Origin: Jaapia argillacea MUCL 33604
Lineage: Eukaryota > Basidiomycota > Agaricomycetes > Jaapiales > Jaapiaceae
Length of the DNA stretch: 64,000 nt
Assembly (NCBI GenBank): GCA_000697665.1
Contig: KL197713.1
Location: 832,593 to 896,592 of the forward strand
Direction of reading: 5' to 3'
Part shown: positions 41,778 to 64,000 of the stretch, in pieces
Numbering within the stretch: position 1 is the first letter of the stretch
Layout of the letters: each line of letters starts with the position of its first letter
Position numbers and translations under genes: made by a program
Notes under the pieces: generated by a model
The model's database searches: none
Seen by the model: only the letters and a program-made list of their open reading frames with translations
Told to the model about the DNA's origin: nothing

Positions 41778-43277
41778 ATGGCCTCAGATATACAAAACTA
41801 CGCCAACCAGCGTATAGTGGAAGTTCTTGCGTCCAAATTGCGGAGAAGGTGAGTGTCCGCCATTGTCCTGGATGTTCCTTGAGTGATCCCAAATTTCCCC
41901 GACAGACAAGTTGTTGGCTCTCGAAATGCAGCCATAGAGACTACCTTGGTTCTACGTCAAGTAGTGTCAAAAGCCCGATTCTCAAATATTGATCAATTGG
42001 TGGACATAATTCGGAGTGTCGGTAGAAGGCTTGTGGAGGCGCAACCAAAAGGTGCTCATCTGTGCCTGCATCCTACTCGTTGTACCAATATCCAGACCTC
42101 TTATGCGCCCCCCAATGGAATTGTCGTTTCTCTACAGAACACACTGTTGGAAATACTGTCCGGAAGGTGTTGCATCATATCCGAGAAGAGTACCATACAG
42201 CTGTGGAAGGAACGGCTGCAGCAACCAAGAAGGAAGATTTCTCAATATCGAGATTCGTCTCCCAAGGTCAACCCAGAAAGCAAAATATCCCCGTGCCAAA
42301 GTCCGAGGAAAGGACGACCACGCTGAGAGAGAATGATCCAGATGACCCGGACTCGTTCGCCAAAGGGTTGAAACCTGTGCTTATGGAGGCGATCCAAGAT
42401 GTCCTCGATGAGCTGGAGACGGTCTACGACAACGTCTCCAAGAATGCAAGAGATCATATTCACTCCGAGTGAGTCGCATAACTAAACTCGTTCCATCTCT
42501 CGTATTGAAAGACAGTTGTCCAGCGAGATCGTGTTAACCATCGGGCACTCAAAAACGGTCGAAGCATTCCTCAAATCAGCAGCTCACTATCGAAATTACA
42601 CCGTCATTGTAGCTGAATCATCCCCCTCGTACGCACCCCTGACTGCCCTCTCTGTACCGTCCCTATCTCACAACGATACTACCTTCCACAGATATAGCGG
42701 TCACGAAATGGCCCGCTCACTCTCCTCTTCCAACATCTCCACATTCCTCGTCCCCGATTCATCAATCTACGCCCTAATGTCCCGTGTCAACAAAGTCATC
42801 CTCGGCGCCCACGCCATCCTCGCCAACGGCGGAATGTTCGCCCTAACTGGATCCCTCCTAGCAGCATCCGCCGCTCACGCACATTCCACCCCAGTCGTTG
42901 TATGTGCCGGTCAATTCAAGTTGACCCCACTATGGAATCTATATCACGAATATGGAGCGCTGGATTTTTCGGACCCGAGTAGTGTGCTTGGGTTTGAGGA
43001 GGGAGACTTGGTTGATAAGGTTGATGTGATCAATCCTTACTTTGATTATGTGAGACCGGAATTGGTGGATGTGTATATCACGAATGAGTGAGTACCTTTC
43101 GATATCTGTTGACGATTACGGTTCTGATGAGGGTATGTTTCAGCGGTGACCACCCCCCATCATCGGTGTATCGGTGAGGATCCTCATTATATTATCACCA
43201 CTCCCATCACTGACGAAGCCATGACTCCTCCCAGACTCATTAAAGAGAGCTACGACGACGACGATCATGAACTATGA
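41778..43277 (+). CDS. GCD7: translation initiation factor eIF2B subunit beta
   Basis: Exons 41778-41848, 41906-42051, 42138-42468, 42512-43087, 43144-43173, 43235-43277; 398 aa (yeast Gcd7 381). It is part of the regulatory alpha/beta/delta core of the guanine nucleotide exchange factor for eIF2. Visible: RNAAIETTLVLRQVVSKAR, GNTVRKVLHHIREEY, EIVLTIGHSKTVEAFL, VILGAHAILANGGMFALTG, VVVCAGQFKLTPLW, PYFDYVRPELVDVYITN and the C-terminal YRLIKESY. Intron 3 is 43 bases with acceptor GAAAG, chosen to keep EQLSSEIVL in frame. Exon 5 is 30 bases. It is tail-to-tail with GUF1. Confidence 0.95.
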
Positions 43278-46710: not shown

Positions 46711-46749
46711 CCCGATCAGACTCGACTTTGAACCCTAACCAGCCCCGTC

Positions 46750-47849
46750 ATGTCCGCCCTCCTGACCATCCCCAAACCACTGCAGTCCTTCTTCGCCCTC
46801 TTCCCTCTGCACACATACCCCCCAATCCCCACTCTCTCCCATGTCCCCTCCCACACCCCAACCTCCGCAACAATCTGGGTCCACCCACCCCACCCGGCTT
46901 CCCAACACTCGCTCCTCTCCAGCGACGTCGAGTGTCTCAAATGGCAAGCCTTCCTCGCCTTGCGCGGTCTCAAATCCATCCGTGTAAGATTCGACGTCAA
47001 GTCCGACGGTGGTGTCGATGGCAGGTTACCTTGCTTGCACGTACCCACCCCCCTCGTCGATCCTAGCGTCCCCATCAAGGAGAAGAACGGGGACGAGTGG
47101 AGTGCACGCGTTGGCGAGGTCTTGCCCGCACACCTAATCCCCGAGTGGGTCGACAAGACTCTCGCAACAGAGGCAACCGAGGGACAAGTAGAGGAGAAAC
47201 TATTGGAAGGGTATAAAGATATTGAAGCAAAAGATGAAAGTAGGGCTTGGGTAGCTCTACTCGAAGGAACAGTCCACTCTGCTCTCCTTGTCAGTCTCCT
47301 CCCTCCTCCCTTCACTTCCTATCTCACCTCTCGTTTCCCCTCAGACATTAACACCACCACCACTCCTCTCCCTCCTCTCCCTCGCCCCCCAACGAAACCC
47401 ACCATCCCACTCAACTCTCATCACCCCTCCCCCACCTCCCTTTACAGGTTTCTCCTCCCTCCTCCCTCCCTACGGTACAAAAGTTTCCATCGAAGACATT
47501 GAAACAAAGTACATAGACGCCATCGGCGCTTTGAGCGAGAGATTAGCAGGCGACCGTTGGTTCCTCGGCTCCCAGTACGTTCATTCCTTTCAACCCACAT
47601 CACATTCTCACTTTTTGCTTTGTACGTAGAAACCCAACTCCCCTAGACGCACTCCTATTCGCATACCTCCACACAATCCTAAACACTCCCATCCCTCCCC
47701 CATCCTCCTCCCCATTATCTTCTTCATCTCCAAAAGCGCGAGCCAAGTCCGCCGTCCTCCGCATTCAAATCACTCGTCGTGTTAACCTCGTAGCTTGGGA
47801 GAAGAGGGTTCGGGCGTTGGTCAGCGCTGCGTTTGTACCTGCGGAGTGA
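46750..47849 (+). CDS. SAM complex subunit SAM37/metaxin-like
   Basis: Exons 46750-47289, 47345-47574, 47630-47849; 329 aa. The N-terminal half fits the Tom37/metaxin thioredoxin-like region: FPLHTYPPIP, TIWVHPP, LLSSDVECLKWQAFLALRG, RFDVKSDGGVDGRLPCLHV. The middle GST-C-like part has KYIDAIGALSERLAGDRWFLGS followed by NPTPLDALLFAYLHTIL. Metaxins sit on the mitochondrial outer membrane and help sort beta-barrel proteins (family knowledge). No clear membrane helix at the C-terminus. It faces GUF1 across only 39 bases, so two mitochondrial genes probably share one promoter. Confidence 0.87.
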
Positions 47850-50497: not shown

Positions 50498-51612
50498 TCA
50501 CAGTTTATCCAGAAGGCCTTTGAGCATCTTCTCCTTCGATTTGGCGGTGACACCGCTGTCCTTATCGAGGTCTTTGGATTTTTGTTCAATCCTAGCGACG
50601 GTCTGGTCGAGTTCGCTTGGGAGTTCGTTCAGGTGGTTGATAGTTTGTATGGCTGGAAGGTCACAAGAGACTAGTGAGAGGGACGAGACATTAAAGGGCG
50701 AATGGACCTCACATTTTTCTTCCATGGCCTTTTGGAACTCGGACCATACTCGATCGCGGCGGTCGTAGGCTAGCTTGAGCTTTGTGAACAGGCCCTTTAT
50801 ATCATTCTATTCCCATGGTCAGGCGAATCTTCAGTGCTGTGCAAAGATCAAGGCACCTACGCGGACTTCGGCAGATAAAGTTTTGAGTTGGTCTTCATCC
50901 TTCATGACAATCCCTTCGAATTTCTTGCAAACTTCGTCGATAGCTATGATTCCAGTCCCATAGGTTATATCGATCTTTTCTTCGAGGATTGTGTGCACTT
51001 CTTTGACGTGTCTGGTTGCTGGTACGAGAGTTTGGACGAGGTGCTGCTTGAGCGCTAGGCCCTGCGCGTTCATGGGATTCTTGATCTGGGTTGCGAGCTT
51101 GATGAGCTCTTCACGTTCGCTGTCAGCTGGATCTCTGAGCGCATATAGGCATCAGAAACCAAAAGCTGCAATGCATATAGTGACCGGACGAACTCGTCCT
51201 GAAGCATGGCCACGAGAGTCGTCTCTTCGTCCCAGTCAAACGAGAAGTCTTCATCGTCGCTCTCTTCTGCTTGTCGGGAAGGGTCGTTATCGCTTCGAAA
51301 CGGGTCCCGAGGGATATCAAACGGCGAGTTTTCATCCTGAGCTGGGCTTTCTTCGCGTAGGAGTGGCAAGCCACGCTTGGATTTGAGGAATCGACCGTGA
51401 GAGAGAACATTAGACCTAGCCACGCCATTGGATGCCCTCGTTCTTGATACCAGGGGTGAGCGTTGTGGAGCTCTTCTCAGGCCTTGATAGACTTGACTAA
51501 AAAAAAGTAGCCTCTCGTGATCGATATGGTACATACCAGATGTCAAGGACTTGGGTGGTGCTGGCCTGTACGGCGAGGCATGGCGAATGTATTGTGGGCG
51601 TTGTCGAGCCAT
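50498..51612 (-). CDS. coiled-coil protein of unknown function
   Basis: Five exons on the minus strand: 51612-51537, 51491-51185, 51134-50861, 50806-50713, 50652-50498; 301 aa. No family recognised. The first 90 residues are basic (MARQRPQYIRHASPYRP...). An acidic block follows (EESDDEDFSFDWDEE). The rest is predicted helical and coiled-coil: MLQDEFVRDPADSEREELIK, ALKQHLVQTLVPATRHVKEV, then VCKKFEGIVMKDEDQLKTL and IKGLFTKLKLAYDRRDRVW. The Lys-rich end is DSGVTAKSKEKMLKGLLDKL. Intron 1 (51492-51536, 45 bases) is stopless in frame. A scaffold or complex subunit is a reasonable guess only. Confidence 0.7.
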
Positions 51613-52067
51613 AGGTCCTAGGATCAAAAGATAACCTCTGTGGGAGCCAGAGCTGGAGATCTAGAAAATGAAGATAAAAATGACAGAACACGGCTCTAGA
51701 GTTCAGATCAAATGCGGTTGAAACTCCGCTGTTAGGCACCATTTACATCTCCATCCGAAAACACTCATTCCGCACCAGTCCGTCGCATCGCCGTTCGAGA
51801 CACATAACCTTCTTCATCCCTTGTTCACCCACCCCCTTTTTTCTATTAATTCGGTCCTCCTCTCGACTCCTTGCAAGGTTCGTATAGCTTGTGCTCCCCC
51901 AACCACCGCCCGTCGAAGCTCACATCAAGGGTCGCGTCACGTCTTCAATAGGAATCACGTTCGCTTAACCTCGCCAACCAATTTTCCTCATAATCAACCA
52001 ACAACGCTCTTCCCGTTGAAGAACCGTACACCTCTTTCCCTCGTCTTTTAATCCACTTTCTGCAACC
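51613..52067. other. divergent promoter region before G-gamma 1
   Basis: Between two divergent start codons (51612 and 52068). Contains C/T-rich stretches typical of fungal promoters; no gene. Confidence 0.5.
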
Positions 52068-52654
52068 ATGAACGTCCGACCACATAAACAATCCATGTCC
52101 GAGCTCAAGTTGAGGAGGTTGACAGAGCACAATCAACGGCTGAGGGAAGACTTATCCAGGCCAAGGATAAGGGTCAGCGAGGCGAGCGCCAGGTATGTCG
52201 AGGTGTCGACTCGGTTCTGTGGCGTTCTGTCTTCTCAACGAGCCTTCTTTAATGCCCAGTTTAATTCGTTATTGCAAGACGACAAAAGACCTGTTGGTAC
52301 GTTATTCGTCATTAATCTTTGCCGTTGAAATGTTTTCGTGGCGCTGTGGCACATACTGTCGTTCTCTATTATGAGATTGCTCCTGTGTCTACTTGCTGTC
52401 CTCTGTCGATGGCGGCTGTCGCAAAAGTTTTCAATTTCCTGATTCGTGCTTGTCCGCGGACAAATGATCTGCCGATTTGGTGTTAGCGTTCTTCAACCCT
52501 TCAACCCGCCATCGACTTTGTTGACCTGGACCACAACACCTTAACTGACATCGCTGTGTCCCGTCTTTAGGTTCCATCAGTATGGGGTCCTGTTGGGAAG
52601 GGCGAGGATCCCTACGCACCCCCGGCGCAGGGCTGCAACTGCACCATTATGTGA
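52068..52654 (+). CDS. heterotrimeric G-protein gamma subunit, copy 1
   Basis: Exons 52068-52192 (125), 52260-52296 (37), 52571-52654 (84); 81 aa, normal for fungal G-gamma. The core is visible: [19 protein letters not shown], then [30 protein letters not shown] and a final C-T-I-M CAAX box with another Cys two residues before it. This Cys78 should be prenylated (Met at the last place favours farnesyl) and the neighbouring Cys may be palmitoylated, anchoring G-beta-gamma to the plasma membrane in pheromone or nutrient signalling (family knowledge). Intron 2 (52297-52570) is 274 bases, the longest within any gene model here. It contains a perfect 14-base palindrome. Confidence 0.95.
52450..52463. 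repeat. perfect 14-base palindrome in an intron
   Basis: TTGTCCGCGGACAA reads the same on both strands. It lies in the long second intron of G-gamma 1. The CCG...CGG halves are of the kind bound by fungal Zn-cluster regulators, but with no spacer (inference). Confidence 0.6.
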
Positions 52655-53534
52655 TTCGTCTCGACCCACCCATATGCCCGCGCCGTGCGCCACACGTCGT
52701 ACACTATGTTATTTGGCTAAGGTGTTGGGAGAGGGGGAGGAAGAGGGTGTTTGCAGATGTGTGGAGGTCAAAAGAGGGAATCGAACTGGAAGTGACAAAA
52801 ACGTTTCACGCGCAGGATTGGGACCCTCGACTATGCGTATCGTCCTCCTCGAACTCCACCTTGGCCAACTCCGCGACGCTCACGCTCCTTACCGTCCATC
52901 TCCTTGTCGCAACATACAGTCACCGATTGTTTAGATTCCCCTCGTCGTCTATTTGCTTTGCTCCTGGGCTGGTTGCCTCCCATTTTTACTGGCCAATTTA
53001 TTATTTCTTTGTCTCTTGTACTGGGCTCACTCGGGGTCTGCGTATCTTAGTGTTCATAATGATTCAATTCTACTGCTGCTTTGAACACTTCCCGCCCTTG
53101 CGTCGTGGTTTGATGGCATCTCCGCCACGTCTCAGGATTTGATGAACACAGCCACCCGGTGACGTTCCCATGGTCACATGCCGCCATGCCCTTGATTGTG
53201 GAGAATGGTATATTTACCGTATCTTCCCACTGCCCTTCACATCCTCCATCAATCCACTTGCTGGCTCCCTGAATATCGCGTGCGACGCCTGCGGACACAC
53301 TCCTTTATTCTGAAGCCATCCTCCTCATTTCTTCTCCAACTCCACCCACTCCCCCCATTAGTCACCACGTTGCTACGTACGGCCCTCTACTACCCCCGTG
53401 TCACAACAGGTGAGCGCTACCAATTCCCTTGCTCGGCCGTTGCGCGCTGAAAACTTCTCTCTCCTCCCATAGCCCCTCCCTCTCCCGCCTTTCAGTTTTG
53501 AGACCCCTCAACCTCATCTTTACACCCTCTCGTC
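52655..53534. other. gap between the two G-gamma genes
   Basis: 3' flank of copy 1 and promoter of copy 2. Open frames here are short and have no motif. No gene seen. Confidence 0.5.
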
Positions 53535-53901
53535 ATGGATACCCGTCGAACGAAGCAGTCAATGGGCGAGTTAAAGCTCCGGAGGTTAGTCGAGCACAAT
53601 CAACGGTTAAGGGAAGATCTGTCGCGACCCAGAATACGGGTGAGCGAAGCTAGCTCTAGGTATATGCCGCTCTCTACTCTTCGTGGACGGAGTCGCTCAC
53701 GCTCTCGATTTTCCAGCCTGATTCGATATTGTAAGACCACAAAGGATCATCTTGTGCGTAGCGCTGGCGGCTTCGTTTTCTCGTCAAATAGGAAGCTGAT
53801 AGCTGCTTCTTTTCTAGGTACCATCTGTATGGGGTCCCGTTGGCAGAGCCGAGGATCCCTATGGACAACAGGCAGCAGCGAAATGCTGTACCGTCCAATG
53901 A
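53535..53901 (+). CDS. heterotrimeric G-protein gamma subunit, copy 2
   Basis: Exons 53535-53659 (125), 53717-53753 (37), 53818-53901 (84); 81 aa. Exon lengths and intron phases are identical to copy 1, so the pair is a tandem duplication. By my count 62 of 81 residues are identical; residues 20-52 are almost unchanged, the N-terminal six and C-terminal twelve differ. The end is C-C-T-V-Q: a CAAX box with Gln last and a Cys directly beside the prenylated one, unlike the C-N-C-T-I-M of copy 1. Codons differ widely despite the conserved protein, so the duplication is old and the protein is under purifying selection. Intron 1 (57 bases) is a multiple of three with no in-frame stop. Confidence 0.94.
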
Positions 53902-54467
53902 TTCGTCGCATCCAGCACCATCTATCCACCATCGGCGCTCCCCTCTACCACTTTCCATTTCCAAACATCCTTCAATGCGGCGTTCCGGCTTCGTCGCATC
54001 CTGTGCATAGAGGTGTATAAGGCACATATAGCCTGTAGAAAAGGTTCACCGTCGAAACACGAGGACATTCGGAATTCGATGTTTCACGTTACATACCTTT
54101 TTACCTTTTCGATCCCTCGGGTTTCTTCCTTGCGTCAGTTCTTGTTTATCCTCTTATCTCATTTCTCTCATCATCATCAACCACAACGTTCTTTTGCCTC
54201 AATTTCTTAGTACCGTACAGGATTCTTGTTGTCGGTTCGTCCTTGTTATCTATGTTTTCAGTTTCCTTTGCACATATTGTACTACTCTCGCGTATCTCTT
54301 TCCCTGATTGTTGTACCTACCGTCCCAGCTAGTTGTCTCAACGAAGCGATATCCCCCAAGGGACACCATTATGGAAGGCGTCTATGATCTAAGTTGTATT
54401 CTGGGTGTTGGTGGCGCGTAGGTGGAGACAATTGACACGGGGGAATGATTATGGATACAGCGTTTAC
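53902..54467. other. convergent 3' gap
   Basis: 3' flanks of G-gamma copy 2 and the thioredoxin gene. T-rich, nothing else seen. Confidence 0.5.
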
Positions 54468-55128
54468 TTATAGGTCGCTCAGGAACTTCCTGACGAGAGT
54501 TTCTGGGATAGCCCCAGAAAACTTGGCAACTTCTTCTCCATCTTTGAAAGCGACAACCAAAGGAATTGATGAAACCTGATGGGGATGGAAATTCAGTAAT
54601 GGGCATGGGACGTAGAGTTGATGAGCCCACCTTGAAGTCGGCGGCAAGCTCGTATTCTTGGTCTACGTCAATAGTGACGAGGTCTACAGACCGGCCTGAG
54701 CCGGTTTGCACGGAGGGGTCGTCAGCAAGCTTCTCCAGGATTGGGGAAAGTTGTTTGCAGGGGCCACACCAACTAGACGTGAGTGAGGGTACGTGAGTTC
54801 TTCTCAGGCCGCGCTCGTTAGCTTGGGAGAGAGACTCACTCTGCGTAAAAGTCGATCAGGACAAGTTTCCCTTCTGACCGGTCTGCCGCGATTGCGTTCT
54901 CAAAGGTCTAACCAAACGCAGAGCATGACGAGACGTTGTCTTCATTACCATCACATCGGGTGCGAAGGGGATCCGAAATGACCGGTGAGGGATAAGTACC
55001 TGTGGATCTGCATTCAAGAACTTTTCACATCTCCGCGAGGAGCTCTGGAAGCCTCTTCGACATGAGGCTGATGCGGCCAACCGGAGACTTCGCGACAAGA
55101 CACGAGAGGAGACTGATGAACTGATCAT
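54468..55128 (-). CDS. thioredoxin, likely mitochondrial
   Basis: Four exons: 55128-55000, 54907-54840, 54772-54631, 54575-54468; 148 aa. The redox motif WCGPCK lies at about residues 66-71 in LIDFYADWCGPCKQLSPIL, followed by VDLVTIDVDQEYELAADF, the cis-Pro segment SSIPLVVAFKDGE and FSGAIPETLVRKFL. The first 35 residues (MISSSVSSRVLSRSLRLAAS..., SCRRGFQSSSRR) are Arg/Ser-rich with no acids, a mitochondrial presequence as in yeast Trx3. It reduces protein disulfides using thioredoxin reductase. Confidence 0.94.
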
Positions 55129-56963: not shown

Positions 56964-59900
56964 ATGGACGCTATTCGAGTCACAAAGGTATTCCAGCAAC
57001 ACCGCAATGCCTCGGCTCTCCTGATCATATCCTCACAAGGTCGAGAATGTTCTGTGCAGTAAAACTGGCAAGACATCATTGGGGACGATTCATCTGACCG
57101 CCCACCATCTGATCGTTTCATACGACGGAGGGGTTGAGGAGGAATTCTGGGTGAGTACCTGCAGATGAAGGTGGTTTTGGAGTTCTCATTGAGCGCTGGT
57201 CGCAGGTACCATACCCTTTGATTTCGCTTGTCACGCGATTGCCCCAGACTTTGCAAGGTCGATGTCCATTGACTGTCCGGTGCCGAACGTTTGAGACCTT
57301 CTCTTTGGTGTTTACGAAGGAGAGCGAAGCCGTGGACGTTTTCGAGAGCGTAAAGGAGTTAACAGTCGTCAGTACGTTGCCTGTTCGCTCGTGGAATCCC
57401 GCAATTTACATCCATGATCAGCATCAGTCCAGCAACTCTATGCGTTTTACTACAACCCCTCCCCTCCCCTCGCTGTCAAGGGCGGATGGTCCATCTACTC
57501 ACCACGAGAGGAGTTTGGCCGTATGGGCGTCGGCACTCGGACAAAGGCATGGCGTTTCACTGATGTGAACAAGGATTACACTGTAAGTAGCTCAAGACCA
57601 TGCAATCCATTTCATTCACGTATAACATATAGTATTTCTAGTTCTGTCCCACATACCCCACGCGCTTGGTTGTCCCCACCAAGATCAGTGACACTACACT
57701 ACAATACGCATCGAAGTACCGCAGCAAGTGCAGGATACCTGTATTGACCTACTTGCATTGGTCAAACTATGTGCGTTGACCTCGTATGCCCCCTGGATCC
57801 GGTTTTTGAGGTTGATGGAACCTGTTTTGTTTCTTTATTTAAGGGCAGTATCACCCGCTCTAGTCAACCTATGGTCGGCCTCACGCAGAGCCGATCCGTC
57901 CAGGATGAGAAACTCATCGAAGCCGTTTTCCAATCCCACTACTCTCCCGACTCTCGAGCTTATGCTGCTCCGGTATATGGCGCGACCGCTACCAACCTCA
58001 TCATTGACGCGAGACCTACAACCAACGCAGTAGCCAATACCGCAAAAGGAGCTGGGACGGAGAACATGGATCATTATAAGGAAGCGAAGAAGGCATACCT
58101 TGGCATTGACAATATCCATGTCATGAGAGATTCGCTCGCAAAGGTGGTGGAGGTCCTTCGGGATACTGACATCATGTCGTCCAACGCCAGTGGCGATCTT
58201 CCAGGCGAAGGTCCTACCATGGCAGTTTTGGATCGACACACGCTGCGACGCTCAGGGTGGTTACGGCACCTTTCAGCAATCATAGAGGGATCCCTCCTCA
58301 TCATTCGCAATGTGCATGTCAACTCCTCCCATGTCCTCATCCATTGCTCAGATGGCTGGGATCGCACAGCACAGCTATCATCATTGTCACAACTCTGTCT
58401 GGATCCCTATTATCGAACCATGCGCGGTTTCCAAATTCTCATCGAGAAGGACTGGTTATCGTTCGGCCACAAATACCTTGATCGTTGCGGACATCTTTCT
58501 TCGGAAAAGTTCTTTGTTGCACCAGTCGAAACTACCGGAGGAGGGGGGGCGGATGCTGCACAGGCGTTCTTCGCTTCGGTGCAGAAGCGCTTTGTTTCTC
58601 AAAGCGACATCAAGGAGACGAGTCCAGTTTTCCATCAGTTTTTGGAGTCGGTGCGACAGATTCAAAGGCAGTATCCCGAGCGATTCGAATTCAACGAACG
58701 CTTCCTCCGCCAACTCTACTACCATCTTTATTCCTGCCAGTTCGGTACCTTCCTGTTCAATTGCGAGAGGGAACGCAGGGTCGGGGAAGGAGGCCCCCCA
58801 CCTTGCGAATCGACCGTCAGCGTTTGGGACTACTTCAATTCGCCCTCGGAGATAGAGAAGAACACCAACCCCGACTATGACAAATCACTAGATGACCCAT
58901 CAAGTCGAGCTCCCAAAGCCGATATGGGGGTGTTATATCCCAATCCCAAGAATGTACGATTCTGGAACGAACTCTACGGCCGTTCTGACGAAGAAATGAA
59001 CGGAAGAGCCTTTGGCGCCCAAGCGCAAGTCCCTGGTGTTGAGTTCACAGGGCCAATCGAAGGGGATGATGACGATTCTGCCATCACACGGTCAGCAACT
59101 CCTGCCACGATCCCGTTACCCCCCTCGCCCGCCAAGTCGCCTCCACTCAACCTGTCTTCGTCACAGCCCGCCATTTCGCCGTTGGCACAAACGACTTCAT
59201 CCATTTCGCCGGTCGAGCCATCATCGCTCGTAACTTCATCTCTACCTGACCTTAATGTTACACTTACCGAGGACCCATTCAAGTTGCCTTCTTCGACATC
59301 CTCAGAGATTTCATTACAATCCCATGTCGGCAATCGACCCCATCGTTCGTCTTCTCCAACTCCTATGAGAGGCTTCACCTCTAGAGCGCAGAGACCCCCT
59401 GACTGGGCAGGTGGGATGAAATCAGTCTGGGGCAAATTGTCGTCCAACGCATCAGCCGCACTCACAGCTGTACAAGGTGCATACGACGGGGTCGCGAAAG
59501 ACTTCGTTGCCAAGACTTTGTCTGGGCCTGAAGGGGATTCAGTTGCAGGAGGAGAGCTGCGAAGCCGTGACCAGATCACTGCCTGGGTCGAAGAACCTTC
59601 ATCGCCACCCCGCACTACGTCCCCATCATACACACCCACCACCTCCAGCAACCCTTGGGTCCCTACTTCAAGGACAAATGTCCCTTCTATTATTGCCGAC
59701 AATCCTTGGAACTCGGTGCGGCCTCCTCCCAGGCAAAATACGGACAATCCGTGGAGCACTGCCAGTCAGAACGTAGCCTTTAATGATATGCCATCTGATC
59801 TTCTCAATTCCCTTCCAGTTGACCCCACGATCGTACAGCCAACTCCACGGCCATCCCAGTCTCGTCGTACCTCCGCACTGACTCCGGAACGATCATCGCC

Positions 59901-60015
59901 ACCTGTGAATTTGCCAGCTCATACACCCGATAGGCTCGCAAACTCGCGTCACATAGAGTCTCCTCGAGGAGGTACTCAATCAAACACGGACCCTCTGGGT
60001 GTGGGTCCGTTGTAG
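56964..60015 (+). CDS. YMR1: myotubularin-type phosphoinositide 3-phosphatase
   Basis: Exons 56964-56987, 57040-57150, 57206-57371, 57428-57582, 57642-57770, 57844-60015; 918 aa. N-terminal GRAM/PH-like part (VENVLCSKTGKTSLGTIHLT, then VPYPLISLVTRLP and CRTFETFSLVF), followed by the phosphatase domain with FRxxDVNxDY-type WRFTDVNKDYTFCPTYP, VPVLTYLHW-like RIPVLTYLHW, and the active site HCSDGWDRT with Cys near residue 363 and Arg 369. It removes the 3-phosphate from PI3P and PI(3,5)P2 on endosomes. The C-terminal 300 residues are disordered, Ser/Pro-rich, with three NPW motifs near 59655-59760. The yeast protein is 688 aa, so the tail is an extension. Confidence 0.95.
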
Positions 60016-60339: not shown

Positions 60340-61847
60340 ATGTCTAACGGTCACGCCAACCCCGCTCACGCTGCCCTCCAGCCCGGGCACTTCCTCTTCA
60401 CTTCTGAGTCTGTCGGCGAGGGTCATCCTGGTACGTTTGTATGTCGTTTTGCGAGTATTGTACCTTACAACACTTCCAGACAAGATCTGTGATCAAGTCT
60501 CCGATGCTATCGTATGTGCCATCCATGCCAGCGAGACCTTCAGAACTGACTAACGTCTCCTCAGCTCGACGCCTGCTTGGCTCAGGACCCTTTCTCCAAG
60601 GTTGCTTGCGAGACTGCGTCCAAGACCGGAATGATCATGGTGTTCGGTGAAATCACCACCAAGGGTCTGATCGACTACCAGAAAGTCATCCGTGACACCA
60701 TCAAGCAAATTGGTTACGACGATTCGTCCAAGGGTTTCGATTACAAGACTTGCAACATTTTGGTCGCCATCGAACAGCAATCCCCTGATATCGCCCAGGG
60801 TCTCGACCACGGTGCTTTGGAGAACATCGGTGCTGGTGACCAGGGTATCATGTTCGGTTATGCCACCGATGAGACCGAGGAGTACATGCCGTTGACAATC
60901 ATGCTTGCTCACAAGCTCAATGCTGCGATGGCCGTTGCTCGTCGCAATGGCGTCCTCCCCTGGCTGCGCCCCGACTCGAAGACCCAGGTCACCATCGAAT
61001 ACAAAAAGGATGGTGGAGCCACCATTCCTCTCCGGGTTGACACTGTCGTTATCTCAACGCAGCACGCTGAGGAGATCTCCACCCCTGAGCTCCGCAAGGA
61101 GATCCTGGACAAGATCATCAAGAAGGTCATCCCCGCCAACCTGCTCGATGACCGGACCGTATATCACGTACGTTATTTGCTCACTGGTTTTATGTGTTCA
61201 GCAAGTCTTAAGGTCTTCATTTCGCGTAGATCCAACCCTCAGGACGATTCGTCATTGGTGGACCCCAAGGAGACGCTGGTTTGACTGGTCGCAAGATCAT
61301 TGTCGACACCTATGGTGGCTGGGGAGCTCACGGTGGAGGTGCCTTCTCTGGCAAGGATTGGTCGAAAGTCGACCGATCGGCTGCGTATACTGCTCGCTGG
61401 ATTGGTGAGTAGCTTTTTCCTCGGTGAGGCTGCCCTGCTGACTTGTGATCCTTCGCTGTGAAGCCAAGTCCCTCGTTGCTGCTGGTCTCTCTCGCCGCTG
61501 CCTGGTACAGCTCTCGTATGCCATCGGTGTTGCTGAGCCCCTATCCGTCTACGTGGATACCTATGGCACCAGCAAGAAGACTGATGAGGAGCTTGTGGAG
61601 ATCATCAGAAAGAACTGGGATTTACGACCTGGTGTCATCGGTACGTATTCCTCCACCTACCCATGACACGTATCTCATTGCTCTGCAGTCCAGCAGCTCA
61701 ACCTGCAAAAGCCCATATATCTCAAGACTGCTTCGTACGGCCACTTTGGTAAGATTGTTAGTCTCTTGTTTTACCCCCCTCCACTGAATATAATCCACAG
61801 GCAACCCCGAGTACACTTGGGAGCAGCCCAAGAAGCTCGTCCTTTGA
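60340..61847 (+). CDS. SAM2: S-adenosylmethionine synthetase
   Basis: Seven exons: 60340-60430, 60480-60511, 60565-61167, 61230-61404, 61464-61640, 61689-61748, 61801-61847; 394 aa. It makes S-adenosylmethionine from methionine and ATP. Family signatures are complete: [68 protein letters not shown] and the C-terminal GHFGN. Codon use is strongly biased to C-ending codons, like ATP2, which points to high expression. Symbol by family; yeast has two copies. Confidence 0.98.
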
Positions 61848-62616: not shown

Positions 62617-64000
62617 AGTGAGTGGTTCGTTTCGCCTACACGAACAGTCGATCACACGTTTGTTTGTTTCGTAGTGTGCGGGATCCTGGGTTTACTCTTG
62701 CACGACCCCAACGTCGATGCTGCTCCAGAGATTTGTGAAGGGTTGTCGCTTTTGCAGCACAGAGGACAAGATGCCTGCGGCATCGTTACTTGTGGACCGA
62801 AAGGTCGTTTTTATCAGTGCAAAGGGAATGGAATGGTAAGAGATGTCTTTGACTCCAATGCCATCTCGACTTTGGTTGGGGGAATGGGTGTGGGGCACGG
62901 TGAGCACTTTAGATCCGGCAATGCGTCAGCACGTCTAAAGTCGTATTTCCCCGCCAGTCAGATACCCTACTGCTGGAAGTTCCCATCACGCGGAGGCACA
63001 ACCTTTCTATGTTAACTCTCCGTACGGGATCGTTTTCGCCCATGTGAGTTCTTGAGTTATCTCTCCTTTTCCAAGCCGAGTTCAACACGATATCAGAACG
63101 GAAACCTCATCAATACCGCATCCCTATTGCAGTATATGGATGCAGAAGCCCACCGACATATCAATACGAACTCGGATTCGGAACTACTCCTCAACATCTT
63201 CGCAAATAACCTCCAGCAAACTGGAAAGTTCCGTATCAACGAGGATGATATCTTTACTGCTATCGGTGGGCTGATGGAACAATGCAAAGGGGCGTACGCA
63301 TGCGTGGCAATGTTGGCTGGTTTCGGGATTATCGCTTTTCGAGATCCCAATGGCATCCGACCCGTGGGTATGGGCACACGGAAGGCGGGATCAGGAAAAG
63401 ATTATCTCTTTGCAAGCGAGAGTGTTGTCGCGGACGCCAGTGGTTTTGGGGATTGGGAGGACGTCAGGCCAGGTACGTTTTCCTTTTTCTGGTGGGTCGA
63501 GAATTCCGACTGAACTGATGTATGGTCATGGGACATTGAATTTGTAGGTGAAGCCGTTATCATTACACGATCATCTATCACACGGCGTCAAGTCTCTAAC
63601 CCTGCAACCTTCGCTCCGGATATCTTTGAATATGTCTACTTCGCTCGACCCGATTCTGTTCTTGATGGCGTTAGTGTATATAGAAGTCGGATGGCCATGG
63701 GTGATGCCTTGGCTGTGGAGGTTAAGAGGGTTTTGCACGAAAAGAATATCTGTGTCGATGTTGTGATTCCGGTATGGCTTCAATCTGCTTTTCTCCTCGT
63801 ACCACGTGACTTATCAGGGTCCCTTAGGTGCCAGACACCTCTCGAGTAGCGGCTCTGAATCTCGCCCAAAAGTTAGAACTCCCTTACCGGGAAGGATTCA
63901 TCAAAAATCGATATGTCGGGCGGACCTTCATTATGCCCGGGCAACAGATGAGGTGAGCCTTGACTTTTCATACACCTTGGCGACATACAGTAATTCGCGG
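62617..64000 (+). CDS. ADE4: amidophosphoribosyltransferase (5' part; runs off the right edge)
   Basis: Exons 62617, 62675-62899, 62958-63043, 63097-63472, 63548-63771, 63828-63952, 63991->64000; about 349 aa present. First step of purine synthesis: PRPP plus glutamine to phosphoribosylamine. The start codon is split: A ending TTCAACCA at 62617, then TG at 62675 after a 57-base GTGAGT...GTAG intron. The product begins [11 protein letters not shown], which puts the catalytic Cys at residue 2 as the N-terminal-nucleophile mechanism requires. Other motifs: [47 protein letters not shown] and [10 protein letters not shown]. The last listed intron (63953-63990) is only 38 bases, so its acceptor is provisional. 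Confidence 0.93.

Follow-up and report, generated by a model that had tools for sequence, protein, structure and literature searches.

The window analysed here, a stretch of 64,000 nucleotides, lies on contig 5 of the 43.7-Mb genome of Jaapia argillacea (95 contigs) and carries two genes for G-protein gamma subunits arranged head to tail on the forward strand (52068-52654 and 53535-53901). Copy 1 is composed of exons of 125, 37 and 84 b (52068..52192, 52260..52296 and 52571..52654) separated by introns of 67 and 274 b, and copy 2 of exons of the same lengths (53535..53659, 53717..53753 and 53818..53901) separated by introns of 57 and 64 b, so that only the second intron of copy 1 is long. Intron positions and phases were identical in both copies and all four introns displayed GT...AG ends. 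Each gene model, drawn from the sequence alone, has a start, two introns and a stop, and predicts a protein of 81 residues ending in GCNCTIM (copy 1) or KCCTVQ (copy 2). A tandem pair of intact genes with this exon pattern and protein length had been announced in a preliminary description of the locus, and coordinates, orientation and C-termini agreed with it; the spacing, given there as 0.9 kb, was measured at 880 b from stop to start (52655..53534). This intervening stretch, which was submitted to blastn and motif counts, presumably comprises the 3' end of copy 1 and the promoter of copy 2.

G-gamma was the sole Pfam family matched by both proteins at E <= 0.001. Exon 1 of either gene matches PF00631 (GGL), and the proteins scored 83.4 bits (copy 1) and 76.1 bits (copy 2) against a cut-off of 27.1, which bears out the proposed G-gamma identity. 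The matches covered positions 2-69 and 2-68 of the 69 profile positions and corresponded to residues 12-81 in copy 1 and 12-80 in copy 2. With 81 residues each, both are small stand-alone G-gamma proteins, unlike the GGL domains found within RGS proteins, and both display a CaaX box at the extreme C-terminus (CTIM and CTVQ, encoded by the third exons), for which prenylation is predicted. The nearest solved chains were 7ad3_G and 9sh6_G, listed as G-protein gamma, which we take to be Ste18 of Saccharomyces cerevisiae. Copy 1 shared the same core with these chains over residues 10-66 (E 1.8e-10) and copy 2 over residues 9-62 (best E 4.7e-10), while animal-type gamma-2 chains were far behind for copy 1 (E 0.039 and worse in a search up to E 1). 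Ste18 differs by a longer N-terminus, the aligned part beginning at chain residue 26 or 27. It has a cysteine before its CaaX box, as in both copies, and is a single gene that is not known to have a tandem partner. Both genes of the pair are thus predicted to encode canonical fungal G-gamma subunits.

The C-terminal ends were initially described as different prenylation boxes. This holds for the sequences, CTIM and CTVQ being distinct, but not for the predicted class: a terminal M or Q of the CaaX box favours farnesyl transferase, and both boxes are of the farnesyl type according to this rule. Because both proteins end in C-T-(I/V)-(M/Q) with one extra cysteine just before the box, the two G-gammas likely carry the same lipid. 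The extra cysteine is directly adjacent to the box in copy 2 (CC) and one residue further in copy 1 (CNC), and is a candidate acylation site. The tail difference may alter acylation or membrane dwell time.

The two proteins were identical at 62 of 81 residues, unequally distributed along the chain: five of nine in the N-terminus, 54 of 60 in the core and only three of 12 in the tail, in agreement with the near-identical core and differing end noted earlier. Among the 82 codons compared (stop included), 29 were identical, 34 differed silently and 19 changed the residue, and 13 out of 21 fourfold-degenerate sites with shared first two bases were different, a pattern that departs widely from chance and is compatible with constraint on both copies; the wide codon divergence reported for a conserved protein was therefore found again. 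Method LWL85 gave dN 0.21 and dS 1.98, that is a ratio of ~0.10, which is a rough guide since dS is saturated, as indicated by NG86, which returned no dS, and by the maximum-likelihood method, which gave 9.3. Being derived from two sequences only, dN/dS is a joint value and does not describe either copy separately. The near saturation of silent sites points to an old duplication with both copies kept under constraint, and together with the intact frames it matches the initial impression of two functional-looking and old genes.

Neutral evolution was simulated for four branch lengths, with 2000 copies per length, each copy being compared with its own starting sequence; the simulation is crude, in that mutation is taken to be uniform and one copy to be entirely free of constraint. 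At the shortest branch the best-preserved copy retained 56 of 81 residues, and at the longest 27, in contrast to the 62 observed, and a stop was gained in 88.5 to 96.7% of copies. Simulated conservation thus fell below that observed, which argues that selection has very probably maintained both copies from the duplication onwards. The strong differences in tail and N-terminus would also fit a real functional divergence. It is highly improbable that copy 2 is a duplicate in decay or confined to this species: its score against the family model is slightly lower than that of copy 1, but its reading frame, splice sites, conserved core and CaaX box are all intact despite near-saturated silent sites, the simulation never reached the conservation seen between the copies, and a very recent origin in this species only is unlikely because silent divergence is saturated.

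Outside the exons, corresponding stretches (introns and flanks) displayed no alignment above chance. By blastn, the best match of the 880-b stretch had an E of 0.60 with the sequence preceding copy 1 and of 0.75 with the sequence following copy 2, and a duplication wider than the genes was rejected as corresponding flanks showed no better match than these. One match of 27 bases (85%, E 0.006) linked the DNA just upstream of copy 1 with that downstream of copy 2; these places do not correspond, and it was counted as simple-sequence similarity.

No convincing third G-gamma was found in the 43.7-Mb genome by Pfam search and by protein searches with both copies, a scope that a very divergent or short-exon gene could escape. 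Copy 2 also gave two weak matches, on C14 (E 0.013) and C1 (E 0.046), which were rejected by eye as the conserved gamma core was missing from the matched stretches. A typed G-beta stretch used as query detected one canonical G-beta (99% over 78 residues, C2:552596-552829), and the DNA around this place, when read by eye, looks like a G-beta gene interrupted by short introns. The other 30 of the 31 matches listed did not exceed 36% identity, a level to be expected from other WD40 repeats. Since one canonical G-beta was found by sequence search, two beta-gamma dimers are possible, as had been suggested.

G-alpha family matches (45) were grouped by hand into 20 places, 18 of which included a match over the cut-off; these places, counted as family matches, are candidate G-alpha genes. 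They were distributed over contigs 5, 6, 12, 14, 15, 16, 25, 26, 37, 40, 43, 60, 72 and 91. Among the 14 control genomes of this search, one bacterium gave a match below the cut-off. By comparison, four G-alphas are reported for Flammulina filiformis (PMC9030616). A G-alpha complement that is expanded and in part divergent, next to one canonical G-beta, may outrank the G-gamma pair in interest. The 62 STE3-type receptor matches, also grouped by hand, defined 17 places, a large number that is in keeping with a basidiomycete. Contigs 50 and 47 carry 14 of these places, with clusters at 14843-61251 on contig 50 and 6814-42230 on contig 47 that are probably mating-type receptor regions. Single places were found on contigs 20, 23 and 75, and also at C50:191 kb. 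None of the 17 was located on contig 5, and the G-gamma pair is therefore not beside the receptor clusters.

G-gamma subunits form a coiled-coil with G-beta and anchor it through the prenylated cysteine of the CaaX box. We consider it likely that one G-gamma gene was duplicated in tandem long ago, introns included, that both products bind one G-beta and carry a prenylated anchor, and that both copies persist because they are partly redundant and share out expression or dosage between them. Given the near-identical core, both copies should bind the same, single canonical G-beta, each probably engaging its N-terminus in a coiled-coil. The dimer would be held at the plasma membrane via the prenylated CaaX cysteine, probably farnesylated and aided by the nearby acylated cysteine. 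In this scheme, the copies could differ in their short N-terminus, in their last 12 residues and in their regulatory DNA. Such partial redundancy would be a likelier cause of retention than service in two separate pathways.

A division of labour, in which one G-beta is sent to two destinations as a pheromone dimer and a nutrient/cAMP dimer, by way of the tails or their acylation, appears doubtful. The weakly conserved tails, the different cysteine spacing and the lack of alignable similarity in corresponding introns and flanks are all consistent with it, and the 20 G-alpha and 17 STE3-type places seem to share one canonical G-beta. The lipid predicted from the CaaX boxes is nevertheless of one class in both copies, and ACAAAGGG, which we take to be a pheromone response word, was missing from either strand of 51560-52067 and 52655-53534. 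The same intervals lacked the regulatory motif TGACGTCA on both strands, while words such as AGGGG, TGACG and CCAAT were present but are short and uninformative. Gpg1 and Gpg2, the two G-gammas of Cryptococcus neoformans, are moreover reported as shared between the mating and cAMP/PKA pathways (PMC6592070). A strict split of pathways between the copies is possible but unsupported.

It is quite unlikely that the G-gammas, through cysteine spacing and tails, direct their common G-beta to different membranes or receptor pathways, specificity coming from G-gamma and not from G-beta. If this were true, a fungus with about 20 places for G-alpha and numerous receptors of the pheromone type would gain specificity from its G-gammas. 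Provided that both copies are used, the locus would offer a clean natural test of the G-gamma contribution to fungal G-beta-gamma signalling, because the G-beta-binding core is nearly constant while the tail varies.

The gene pair can be compared with a few known fungal systems. Fungi had been said to possess usually one G-gamma; this applies to Neurospora crassa, for which GNG-1 is given as the one G-gamma alongside one characterised G-beta (PMC6776386), but not to Cryptococcus neoformans, which already has Gpg1 and Gpg2 with one canonical G-beta, Gpb1 (PMC6592070). GNG-1 resembles the present genes as a fungal G-gamma with one G-beta and differs in being a single gene, whereas the Cryptococcus set, compared by description, is similar in combining two G-gammas with one canonical G-beta. 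Because of Gpg1 and Gpg2, two G-gammas in a basidiomycete are a known situation. The locus is an old, real gene pair of a known family and a small addition to this theme. No G-gamma count was given in the G-protein passages of mushroom papers PMC8161036, PMC9866537 and PMC9030616, and no basidiomycete count in those of PMC12842992, PMC11943073 and PMC10393545. Within the open-licence literature searched, subscription literature being mostly outside this scope, no Agaricomycete was seen to be described with two G-gamma genes in tandem.

Chances seem evenly balanced that the pair is of ancient origin and widely distributed, and so ordinary, in this fungal class, which would be compatible with the other accounts. 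Near-saturated silent divergence suggests that close relatives should share the pair unless it was lost, and another basidiomycete likewise possesses two G-gammas (PMC6592070), whereas scans of viral contigs and prokaryote genomes with copy 1 gave no credible relative. These scans reach close relatives only, since copy 1 was the sole query. In viral contigs, one stretch matched the peptide pattern and none was confirmed by tblastn; in prokaryote genomes, 63 stretches were obtained with one confirmed match. A Rhodopila metagenome bin (L018:5001-5102) displayed a 34-residue match to copy 1 (41%), which holds the eight residues sought by the scan; no gamma core was seen in it, and it was taken by eye for chance and not for a G-gamma.

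The surroundings of the G-gamma pair were ordinary. Out of ten neighbouring frames submitted to Pfam, six matched something and four nothing. A frame of the initiation factor 2B family was found upstream (42486-43088, forward strand), followed by a frame with weak GST_N_4 and SAM35 matches below the cut-off (46732-47499, forward strand), which is perhaps a mitochondrial outer-membrane sorting (SAM/metaxin-like) gene. Downstream, a myotubularin-like phosphatase (57748-60012), an S-adenosylmethionine synthetase (60550-61281) and a glutamine amidotransferase domain (63016-63510) were encoded on the forward strand, and a thioredoxin gene on the reverse strand (54385-54855) adjoins the pair; these frames and that of the initiation factor 2B family could serve as synteny markers.
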